DNA of 64,000 nucleotides from Anaerolineae bacterium CG2_30_57_67 (GTDB lineage: Bacteria > Chloroflexota > Anaerolineae > Anaerolineales > Villigracilaceae), in assembly GCA_001872455.1 (NCBI GenBank), contig MNXJ01000057.1, forward strand, positions 1 to 64,000. The letters are read 5' to 3'. Below the pieces are notes generated by a model. That model was not told where the DNA came from. It did no database searches and saw nothing but the letters and a program-made list of their open reading frames with translations. Positions 2,644 to 46,200 of this stretch are shown piece after piece; the first letter of the stretch is position 1, and each line of letters opens with the position of its first letter. Made by a program: the position numbers and the translations under genes.

Positions 2644-4102
2644 GCCAACCATTTTTGAATTGTCTTCCCCGGGCCGCACCGGCGTGACCTTCCCCCAGGC
2701 GGATGTGCCCGCCTTCGACCTGCCGGAGGCTGACCTGCTGCGCGGCGACCTGCCCCTGCCCGAACTGGCTGAGGTGGATGTTGTCCGTCACTACATGGCG
2801 CTCTCGAAATATAACTACAGCGTGGATGGCGGTTTCTACCCGCTCGGCTCCTGCACCATGAAATACAACCCAAAAATCAACGAAGACACCTGCCGCCTGC
2901 CTGGCTTTTTGCACACCCATCCGCTGCAGCCCATCGAAACCGTGCAGGGCAACCTGGCGCTGATGTTCGAAATGCAGGAATGGCTGAAGGAAATCAGCGG
3001 ATTCGCGGCGGTCACGCTCCAACCTGCGGCTGGCGCGCACGGTGAATTTACCGGCGTGCTGATGATGCGCGCCTACCACCAGTCGCGCGGTGACGCCAAA
3101 CGGGTGAAAATGCTCATCCCCGATGCGGCGCATGGCACCAACCCGGCTTCCTCTGGCCTGGTCGGCTTCAGCGTTGTCACCATCCCCTCCGACGCGCGCG
3201 GCAACGTGGATTTGGACGCGCTCAAAGCGCAGTGTGACGACACCGTCGCCGGGATGATGCTGACCAACCCGAACACGCTCGGCCTGTTCGACGAACACAT
3301 CGAAAAAGTGATTGGTCTCGTTCACGGCTGCGGCGGCCTGATGTACGCCGACGGCGCGAACCTGAACGCCCTGCTCGGCATCGTCCGCCCCGGCGATTTG
3401 GGCTTCGACGTGATGCACTTCAACCTGCACAAAACCTTCGCCGTGCCGCATGGCGGCGGCGGCCCCGGCTCCGGCCCGGTCGGCGTGGCCGAAAAACTGG
3501 CCGATTTTCTGCCTACCCCGCTAGTTGGCATCATCGAAGAAGCCGACGACGAAAATCCGCCGCTCTACGGCTTTGTCACGCCCAAACACACCATCGGACG
3601 CATGAAAGCCTTTCACGGCCACTTTGGCGGCGGTGTGGTACGCGCCTATACCTACATCGCCATGCACGGCGGCGAAGGGTTGAAAGACATCTCACAGTAC
3701 GCGGTGCTGAACGCCAATTACCTCAAGGCGCGGCTGGAAAAAACCTACCGCGTGCCGTTTGACCGCACCTGCATGCACGAATTCGTCATGGAAGGCCGCT
3801 TCGAAGGCACCGACATCCGCGCCCTGGATATTGCCAAACGCCTGATGGATTACGACTTCCACCCGCCGACAAACTACTTCCCGCTGATTGTGCATGAGGC
3901 GCTGATGATTGAGCCGACCGAGACCGAAAACAAAGACACCCTCGACCGGTTTGCCGACACGCTGATTGCGATTGCCGAAGAAGCCAAAACCAACCCCGAA
4001 ATCATCAAAACCGCCCCGCACAGCACGCCCTTTGGGCGCATGGACGAGGTCAAAGCCGCCAAGGAATTGGTCTTGTGCTGCTGGCTGCCAGAAGAACAGT
4101 AG
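2636..4102 (+). CDS. gcvPB: Glycine dehydrogenase (decarboxylating) subunit 2
   Basis: C-terminal half of the P protein; carries PLP. The cofactor lysine is K266 in 'MHFNLHKTFAVPHGGGGP', and the 'YPLGSCTMKYNPK' block near residues 69-80 is diagnostic. The length of 488 residues is normal. The start overlaps the end of gcvPA by eight bases, with GGAGG inside the gcvPA coding sequence about eight bases before the ATG. Followed by a strong terminator. Confidence 0.97.
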   Translation: MIEPTIFELSSPGRTGVTFPQADVPAFDLPEADLLRGDLPLPELAEVDVVRHYMALSKYNYSVDGGFYPLGSCTMKYNPKINEDTCRLPGFLHTHPLQPIETVQGNLALMFEMQEWLKEISGFAAVTLQPAAGAHGEFTGVLMMRAYHQSRGDAKRVKMLIPDAAHGTNPASSGLVGFSVVTIPSDARGNVDLDALKAQCDDTVAGMMLTNPNTLGLFDEHIEKVIGLVHGCGGLMYADGANLNALLGIVRPGDLGFDVMHFNLHKTFAVPHGGGGPGSGPVGVAEKLADFLPTPLVGIIEEADDENPPLYGFVTPKHTIGRMKAFHGHFGGGVVRAYTYIAMHGGEGLKDISQYAVLNANYLKARLEKTYRVPFDRTCMHEFVMEGRFEGTDIRALDIAKRLMDYDFHPPTNYFPLIVHEALMIEPTETENKDTLDRFADTLIAIAEEAKTNPEIIKTAPHSTPFGRMDEVKAAKELVLCCWLPEEQ

Positions 4103-7627: not shown

Positions 7628-7720
7628 CAATACTGTTTAGATAAGGAGTCCAAAGTCTCCAGACTTTGGCGCCAGCGTTGGGAGACGTTGGACTCCGAAA
7701 CTGCTAGCTAAACAGTATTG
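7628..7720. mobile_element. 93-bp palindromic element, family 1, copy 1
   Basis: Begins CAATACTGTTTAG and ends CTAAACAGTATTG, perfect 13-bp terminal inverted repeats, with a largely palindromic interior (GGAGTCCAA ... TTGGACTCC). Length 93 bp, identical to two other copies at 17221 and 44890; this copy is inverted relative to them. No coding capacity. It starts three bases after the stop codon of the helicase. Flanking ten-mers match at only six positions, so any target duplication has decayed. Confidence 0.85.
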
Positions 7721-7910
7721 CTTGTAGCGCGACATTCATGTCGCGGAGTTTGGGACACGGAGTTGACGGAGTCACACGGAGTTTGCTCTTGTAGCGTGAC
7801 ATTCATGCCGCGGAGTTTGGGACACGGAGTTGACGGAGTCACACGGAGTTTGCTCTTGTAGCGCGACATTCATGCCGCGGAGTTTGGACACGGAGTTAAC
7901 GGAGTGGACG
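7721..7910. repeat. 67-bp tandem repeat, about 2.8 copies
   Basis: Units start at 7721, 7788 and 7855, each beginning CTTGTAGCG(C/T)GACATTCATG and continuing with GGACACGGAGTTGACGGAG. The third unit diverges near its end. Each carries a GCGACATTCATG(T/C)CGC palindrome or its decayed form. No open frame is supported across it. Confidence 0.8.
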
Positions 7911-17021: not shown

Positions 17022-17076
17022 ACACGGCAAATCATACCATGCTACAGCCGCAATCTGGCGGGGGACAACTTCTAAC

Positions 17077-17209
17077 GTGTGCACGCAAAGGTTGTCAGAG
17101 CGGAGCGGGTGGAGCGCAAAATCTTCGCGAAGCGCCCTGCAAAGGGCCTGGTTTTGCACGAAAGTCGGAAGATTTTCGACTCCATCCCTGACATGATTTG
17201 CGTGGATAC
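17077..17209. mobile_element. 133-bp palindromic element with 9-bp target duplication
   Basis: The left end GTGTGCACGCAAAGGTTGTCAG is imperfectly inverted at the right end (CTGAC ... TTTGCGTGGATAC), and an inner pair CAAAATCTTCG / CGGAAGATTTTCG is also inverted. The element is flanked by the direct repeat ACTTCTAAC at 17068-17076 and 17210-17218. No coding capacity. It ends 11 bases before a family 1 element. Confidence 0.6.
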
Positions 17210-17220
17210 ACTTCTAACTG

Positions 17221-17313
17221 CAATACTGTTTAGTTAGCGTTGTCGAAGTCCAACGTCTCCCGACTTTGGTGCCAACGTCGGGAGACGTTGGACTCCTTAT
17301 CTAAACAGTATTG
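17221..17313. mobile_element. 93-bp palindromic element, family 1, copy 2
   Basis: Same termini as the copies at 7628 and 44890 (CAATACTGTTTAG / CTAAACAGTATTG) and same length. The interior reads CCAACGTCTCCCGAC ... GTCGGGAGACGTTGG, so the whole element can fold into one hairpin. No target duplication is visible. Confidence 0.88.
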
Positions 17314-44872: not shown

Positions 44873-44889
44873 CAACTGACATTTAGGGT

Positions 44890-44982
44890 CAATACTGTTT
44901 AGTCAGCGTTGTCGGAGCCCAACGTCTCCCGACGTTGGCGCCAAAGTCGGGAGACGTTGGACTCCTTATCTAAACAGTATTG
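44890..44982. mobile_element. 93-bp palindromic element, family 1, copy 3, with 10-bp target duplication
   Basis: Termini CAATACTGTTTAG / CTAAACAGTATTG as in the other copies. Flanked by the perfect direct repeat CATTTAGGGT at 44880-44889 and 44983-44992, strong evidence that it was inserted by transposition. It sits between the convergent ends of the pur operon and the solute-binding protein gene, whose TAA stop lies in the right duplication, and may now act as terminator. Confidence 0.93.
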
Positions 44983-44985
44983 CAT

Positions 44986-46200
44986 TTAGGGTGTGACTGT
45001 AGCTTCGGGAATTATTTTGCCAATGGCCTGATTCCATCGCGCCAGAAAGGCTTCGCGCACGCCGGGCTGGACGATGGCCGGGTCGAGATAAAAATAGATG
45101 ATGTTTTCTGCGCCGACTTCCTGCCCGACGCGGTCAATGTGCAGGGTGGTTACGTCATATACATCGGGGCGGTAAGGGGTCAGACCGCCTTGCGCCAGCG
45201 CCATCTGGCCTTCTTGCGAGAGAACAAAATCTACCAGCAGTTTGGCGCTGTTGGCGCTCTCGCCGCCCTGAGTAATTGCCATGTTTTCGACTAGAATGGG
45301 TTGCCCGTCTTTGATGTAAGACCAATCCAGGTTGGGATGTTCTTGCAGGTGGGGAAAAACATCACTGGCTGGCAAAAAGTAGCCGACGGCGGCCTGCCCC
45401 TCGCCGACGGCCAGTAGCAACTCGTCGGATGATGTGTACAAGACAGGGAAAGTTGCGCCGATTTGGCGTAGCATAGTCCAGGCCGCATTGCCTGAAAAGG
45501 TGGCATAAAACCAGTTGCTGACGAATCCTACGGCGTTGGCTTCGGCGTCGAGCGTTAGAATGCGACCGCGGTAGGTGGTGGGGTTGAGCGCGGCGATCTG
45601 GCTCATACTGCTGATGCGCTCGCGTACCTGAGTTTTGTTGTAGACGATGAGCAATGGATCGCTGGCAAGCGCATAAATTCCGATGGCGCTTCGCGCCCAG
45701 GTGGGGAGATAGACACCTTCTTGCGATTGGTAGGTGATGAGTTGACCCTCGCCAATGATTTTTTGCCAGGCGCCGGTGTCGGCAGAGATAAGCAGATCGG
45801 CGGTTTTTTGGCCGATGGCAAGATCCTCGGTGTAGCGTTGAAAAACGCCGCTATCGTCACTTTCGACAACAGAGACGGTAATCCAGGGATAGTGCTCTTT
45901 AAAAACGCTTAACAGTGAATGTAATTTTTGTTCGCTGATGGCAGAGTAGAGCGTGAGCACTTCTTCCTTTTGCGAGGCAATGATGATATCACCGTAAAAA
46001 GTGGAATAATAGGCGGGAATGTAGTAGCGTTCCAGCGTGGATGGCGTGGCGGTTGGTTGGAGCAGGGGCGTGGCCGGCACGAGCGCCTGCGAGGTGGGCG
46101 GAGAAACAGGCAGCGGCGTGTTGCTGTTTTCTGTTTGACAGGCAGACAGACTGATAAGGATGAGCGCAAATAGATGAATCAAAATACGAAATTTGGTCAT
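44986..46200 (-). CDS. Extracellular solute-binding lipoprotein
   Basis: 404 residues from ATG 46200. Lipoprotein signal with lipobox 'LISLSACQ', then a Pro/Thr linker and a family 1-type periplasmic binding fold ('VLTLYSAISEQKLHSLLSVF', 'TADLLISADTGAWQKI', 'LASDPLLIVYNKTQ'), similar to Fe(III)-type binding proteins. No permease or ATPase genes follow. It is divergent from a large sensor kinase, so it may present a ligand to that kinase; this is inferred from position. A minus-strand TATAAT lies at 46234-46239. Confidence 0.8.
   Translation of the reverse strand: MTKFRILIHLFALILISLSACQTENSNTPLPVSPPTSQALVPATPLLQPTATPSTLERYYIPAYYSTFYGDIIIASQKEEVLTLYSAISEQKLHSLLSVFKEHYPWITVSVVESDDSGVFQRYTEDLAIGQKTADLLISADTGAWQKIIGEGQLITYQSQEGVYLPTWARSAIGIYALASDPLLIVYNKTQVRERISSMSQIAALNPTTYRGRILTLDAEANAVGFVSNWFYATFSGNAAWTMLRQIGATFPVLYTSSDELLLAVGEGQAAVGYFLPASDVFPHLQEHPNLDWSYIKDGQPILVENMAITQGGESANSAKLLVDFVLSQEGQMALAQGGLTPYRPDVYDVTTLHIDRVGQEVGAENIIYFYLDPAIVQPGVREAFLARWNQAIGKIIPEATVTP

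Follow-up and report, generated by a model that had tools for sequence, protein, structure and literature searches.

A Palindromic IS4-Type MITE with a REP-Doublet Core in an Anaerolineae Genome

Results and Discussion

The 93-bp palindromic repeat that occurs three times in the DNA analyzed here is, with high confidence, a non-autonomous MITE of the IS4 family built around a host-type REP-doublet palindrome, in a system in which terminal shells and cores have been combined in various ways. The DNA is a 64,000-nucleotide stretch from Anaerolineae bacterium CG2_30_57_67 (contig MNXJ01000057.1, positions 1 to 64,000), referred to below as the window. Support for this assignment comes from the copies and their ends, the target duplications and the preferred target, an orthologous locus that lacks the element, and full-length insertion sequences (ISs) with the same type of ends in other members of the class Anaerolineae. 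A previous reading of the sequence alone had described a gene-less MITE moved by a transposase coded elsewhere, and the duplications, the full-length ISs, and the empty locus all support that description. IS4 MITEs are a known kind of element; in the literature searched we found no description of the variant with an interchangeable REP-doublet core, nor any account of MITEs from Anaerolineae or of hybrids between MITEs and REPs.

Copies in the window

The features of the window are as follows.

44880..44889, plus strand: left 10-bp target duplication of copy 3, CATTTAGGGT
44890..44982, plus strand: 93-bp MITE copy 3, flanked by two convergent genes
44890..44907, plus strand: IS4-type end of copy 3, CAATACTGTTTAGTCAGC
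44914..44965, plus strand: core of copy 3, a REP doublet whose two adjacent hairpins have loops, TCCC and GGGA, that complement each other
44965..44982, minus strand: IS4-type end of copy 3, reading CAATACTGTTTAGATAAG on that strand
44983..44992, plus strand: right 10-bp target duplication of copy 3, CATTTAGGGT
7628..7720, minus strand: MITE copy 1, inverted with respect to copy 3, core at 7645-7696, without a clean duplication
17221..17313, plus strand: MITE copy 2, core at 17245-17296, without a clean duplication
17077..17211, no strand assigned: shell of a second kind, GTGTGCACGCAAAGGTTGTCAG ... CTGACATGATTTGCGTGGATACAC, enclosing a related REP-type core and adjoining copy 2

The sequence-only reading had placed three 93-bp copies at 7628-7720, 17221-17313, and 44890-44982, bounded by identical 13-bp inverted termini; these coordinates and lengths are exact, and the terminus CAATACTGTTTAG is present at all three copies. 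When up to two mismatches are allowed, the window contains six matches to the terminus, all of them at the three elements, where 0.45 would be expected by chance; none of 100 shuffles of the window reached six. The perfect 10-bp target duplication attributed to copy 3 was also recovered, on both sides of the element, and a clean duplication is absent from copies 1 and 2 (4 and 7 mismatches of 10, respectively). The convergent genes that flank copy 3 encode an AICARFT/IMPCHase-type N-terminal part and an extracellular solute-binding protein. Copy 1 begins 4 bp past the stop codon of an SNF2-type helicase gene, and tandem 67-bp units starting CTTGTAGCGCGACATTCATGTCGCGG occupy positions 7721-7905, immediately after it.

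Predicted minimum free energies of the window copies range from -45 to -57 kcal/mol, with z-scores of -8.8 to -11.4 relative to shuffled sequence. The earlier description of a near-perfect palindrome is thus borne out by the strong folding but not from end to end, as about 11 bases on one side remain unpaired between the termini and the core.

It had also been suggested that copies 1 and 3 may supply terminators. Both do closely follow gene ends, the hairpins are very stable, and a rough ORF-based sorting assigns 5 of 26 loci to spaces between convergent genes; however, the same sorting assigns 13 to spaces between same-direction genes and 4 to spaces between divergent genes. The sequence 3′ of the copy 3 stem is CATTTAGGGT, which lacks the T-run that would accompany the stem-loop of a rho-independent terminator, and no terminator-like match was found at this copy. 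An Rfam search at copy 3 also returned no match. As mobility alone explains the dispersal, we consider it unlikely that transcription termination or the formation of mRNA 3′-end hairpins is the main reason why the copies are kept; individual copies may act as terminators, though neither a U-tract nor genomic placement supports this.

Copies across the genome and choice of target

The genome from which the window derives is an incomplete 3.0-Mb draft in 87 contigs. It contains 32 exact matches to the terminus and about 30 element-like loci (copies or remnants), including three 71-bp versions in which one core hairpin is missing (L030-L032) and five loci with a single end or damaged ends only (L019, L023-L026). 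The sequence-only reading had proposed looking for further copies with 10-bp duplications, and such copies are present: the duplication is perfect in 9 of 22 distinct two-ended copies and has at most two mismatches in 18 of the 22, against a chance rate of 4e-4 per copy. Across these 22 copies the duplicated target is centered on TA, usually within YTAR. Six of them are near another REP-like palindrome, of the CGACATnnATGTCG type, although the 64-kb window holds only about 7 occurrences of it; at four loci (L003, L006, L012, and L022) this palindrome starts 8-9 bp beyond the right side of the element. No match to the MITE was identified in plasmids, phages, or viral contigs.

Loci L003, L006, and L032 share longer flanks. 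A search for a paralogous empty site in the larger repeat around them recovered no uninterrupted copy with up to three mismatches allowed; these insertions may therefore be copies of one event rather than independent. This larger repeat (CTGATGTTACGCAGCAAGAACCCTGTGGCGC ... GACAGGCTTTAGCAC) hosts MITE copies at L003, L006, L018, and L032 (and L021).

Empty sites in relatives had been named as a further check. The congeneric genome G003 retains the same convergent gene pair that flanks copy 3, with no element between the two genes; this comparison was usable in G003 only, the downstream genes of G001 and G004 not being syntenic. No full element was recovered from the four relatives of the genus that were searched, and a search with exact ends found none in the other scanned members of the family. 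Among 396 genomes scanned, the exact 16-bp end pattern occurs in six, the window's genome included, which belong to several families, and a two-ended pattern search matches named Anaerolineae and Thermoflexales MAGs. The same ends are accompanied by 10-bp duplications in other Anaerolineae; the consensus of the CAATACTGTTTAGTCAGC-type end in other hosts is CAATACTGTTTAGTTAGC.

Full-length relatives and the helper transposase

Members of the IS4 subgroup measure 1400-1650 bp, have ends of the form -AATR--------WTW, and generate duplications of 10-13 bp (PMC2266710). The sequence CAATACTGTTTAGWTA agrees with this consensus at every listed position, and full-length IS4-family ISs of 1421-1488 bp, with an IS4-type transposase and near-identical ends, occur in other Anaerolineae, in keeping with the earlier remark that a 10-bp duplication fits an IS4-like transposase. 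One of these (L087, in genome G261) is 1483 bp long, with both ends present and an intact 469-aa transposase that scores above the cut-off for Nterm_IS4 (PF13006), DDE_Tnp_1 (PF01609), and the NCBIfam IS4 model NF033592; its flanks show no duplication. Searches with the L087 protein as query led to three further ISs, each with a perfect 10-bp duplication: L178 (1488 bp, AGCCTAAAAC), L181 (1422 bp, GGGCTAGGGC), and L182 (1421 bp, GCCCTAAGCC). The end type and the CTA-centered target of these three are the same as those of the MITE. The MITE ends recur with 1-2 differences in the 13-mer in L087, L176, L178, L181, and L182, and the MITE and L176 align over 19-20 bp at 94-95% identity. By eye, the YREK motif of L087 (region YHERWEIEITIDELD) and L089 retains the Y, R, and E, and the K position reads as D. 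Additional traces of such elements appear in G261, where three contigs break off about 139 bp inside an element beginning with a MITE-type end, and in G133, where a MITE-type end lies upstream of the start of an IS4-type transposase gene.

A full-length IS with the same ends, which the sequence-only reading had proposed to look for, is thus found in other Anaerolineae but not in the window's genome. In this incomplete draft, neither PF13006 nor the L087 protein has a match, and none of the exact terminus matches falls at a contig edge, where it would point to a collapsed IS. The copies are thus probably orphans, their helper being absent today from the genome as assembled. The single DDE_Tnp_1 match in this genome was rejected as a helper: it is a fragment with stops, and has no CAATACTG ends within three mismatches.

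From these sequence comparisons we infer mobilization in trans by an IS4-subgroup transposase. Two IS ends of about 18 bp (CAATACTGTTTAGATAAG and CAATACTGTTTAGTTAGC) would be bound by a DDE transposase of this subgroup supplied in trans, and insertion at a 10-bp staggered cut centered on YTAR would yield the 10-bp duplications; the foot of the CGACATnnATGTCG-type REP-like palindrome recurs among the targets.

The REP-doublet core and its other settings

The element consists of an IS end of about 18 bp, a REP-doublet palindrome, and a second IS end of about 18 bp. The core has the form GGAG-CCAACGTC-TCCC-GACGTTGG followed by CCAAAGTC-GGGA-GACTTTGG-ACTCC; each half folds singly, and the two adjacent hairpins together make up the long palindrome. 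Beyond chance-level short words, similarity between the MITE and the ISs is restricted to the terminal 18-20 bp, and the middle of the MITE does not seem to be IS-derived. The core palindrome family is found outside the element at 43 loci of the window's genome, with 98 half-site matches in total, compared with 0 for a reversed-pattern control, and core-like matches also occur in the congeneric genomes G001 and G004, for which the search yielded no full element. That the core is a member of a REP-like repeat family separate from the IS ends had been missed by the sequence-only reading. Two free doublets of the GGAG/ACTCC type (L036 and L037, contigs C26 and C23) lie in near-identical flanks, possibly inside an ORF.

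The same ends surround other cores in other hosts: GTAG...CTAC-type doublets in G061 and G133, a GCGAGGACGCGG doublet also in G133, GGGAGCC doublets in G061 and G113, and a AGACCTTCGAGGTTTT doublet in G188. The G188 core has 96 half-site matches, several of which, on inspection, lie clearly outside MITE-type ends. Independence of the core was shown in the window's genome and in G188, and for the GGGAGCC type of G061 by one locus; no free copies of the GTAG-type cores of G061 and G133 were found in about 190 kb sampled. Conversely, related cores occur in other shells. In the window's genome, a second shell with termini GTGTGCACGCAAATCATGTCAGGG surrounds a related core (L117, L044, and window positions 17077-17211), and in the window TTCTAAC stands on both sides of it (17070-17076 and 17212-17218). 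The GGGAGCC core of G061 also sits in a TATCTTCTCAA shell with flanks CATTGCTGG, and the AGACC core of G188 in one whose inverted repeats, about 11-15 bp long, are imperfect. Few loci represent these second shells, and the duplications around them are less secure. Unrelated cores within the same ends, together with the same or a related core within second shells, indicate several combinations of shells and cores; to judge from these sequences, the combinations differ across hosts. In another Anaerolineae MAG (L056, MNXK01000210.1), two MITEs (3113-3204 and 3293-3393) separated by about 90 bp have the same ends but differ in their cores, one of which is of the window's GGAGT type.

The free cores could instead be decayed copies of the MITE that have lost their ends, in which case no core would have been exchanged between shells. 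The loci with one end or damaged ends (L019, L023-L026) are what such decay would leave. However, most of the free cores inspected belong to other subfamilies, with CGAAAGTC or GCAAAATC stems, and bear no trace of ends; core-like matches are present in G001 and G004, where searches recovered no full element; and in other hosts unrelated cores are bounded by these ends, while one and the same core is also bounded by different ones. Decay is accordingly an improbable source of the free cores.

A rival reading, in which a Y1 (RAYT) transposase disperses the entire palindrome as a REP/REPIN or BIME-type repeat that includes the CAATACTG ends, is very improbable. The REP-doublet architecture of the core and the Y1 transposase genes in 9 of 10 genomes examined would fit it, but the 10-bp duplications and IS4-type ends are common to full-length DDE ISs. 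The sole Y1_Tnp protein found in the window's genome was weighed as a candidate RAYT but set aside; it is 554 aa long, has its Y1 domain at the C-terminus, and is present in single copy. This protein (L127, contig C44, 238-1902), with its IS200/Y1-type transposase domain at the C-terminus, reads as lacking the usual histidine motif; one such long Y1-domain protein occurs in each of five genus members searched, and it may be a domesticated transposase.

Returning to the IS4-family MITE with a REP-doublet core, our working guess is that the core would have entered by insertion into, or replacement of, a dispensable middle, followed by amplification by the IS transposase. More tentatively, and with rather less than even confidence, REP doublets may repeatedly enter MITE middles as a modular system, with several shells in one host and several cores in one shell, perhaps because an extruded hairpin aids synapsis of ends about 90 bp apart or because the REP machinery inserts preferentially into MITEs. 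If this modular reading is true, DDE transposases spread REP sequences; the data suggest a possible route through which ordinary DDE transposases could spread REP-type repeats. If a hairpin core does help very short elements to transpose, this would bear on why so many bacterial MITEs are near-perfect palindromes. The findings also provide an Anaerolineae MITE family with a recognizable parent-type IS, a target rule, and a duplication length.

Comparison with known systems

As in the IS4 subgroup (PMC2266710), the MITE has ends that fit -AATR--------WTW, 10-bp duplications, and full-length relatives of 1421-1488 bp; unlike the ISs of that subgroup, the MITE itself is gene-less, and in L087 the YREK motif appears to have D in place of K. 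It resembles the bacterial MITEs Nezha, RUP, NEMIS, and MITEAba12 (PMC3733652, PMC6382973) in being short and gene-less, with terminal inverted repeats, duplications, and a known parent-type IS, but differs from them in its middle, a REP doublet that varies among hosts and is also found outside the element. With REPINs and BIMEs (PMC3116915, PMC3733652) it shares two inverted hairpins, a foot tag (GGAG here; GTAG in other hosts), and dispersal through the genome; however, the doublets described here also occur inside IS ends with 10-bp duplications, and the window's genome yielded no typical RAYT. REP elements are the targets of ISRm22, an IS of the IS4 family (PMC1525189). The MITE is like ISRm22 in inserting at REP-type palindromes (the six of 22 two-ended copies close to a CGACATnnATGTCG-type palindrome) and unlike it in that targeting is partial and a REP-like unit is also present within the element. 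The known insertion of an IS4-family element into REP targets agrees with the preference of the MITE for palindrome feet.
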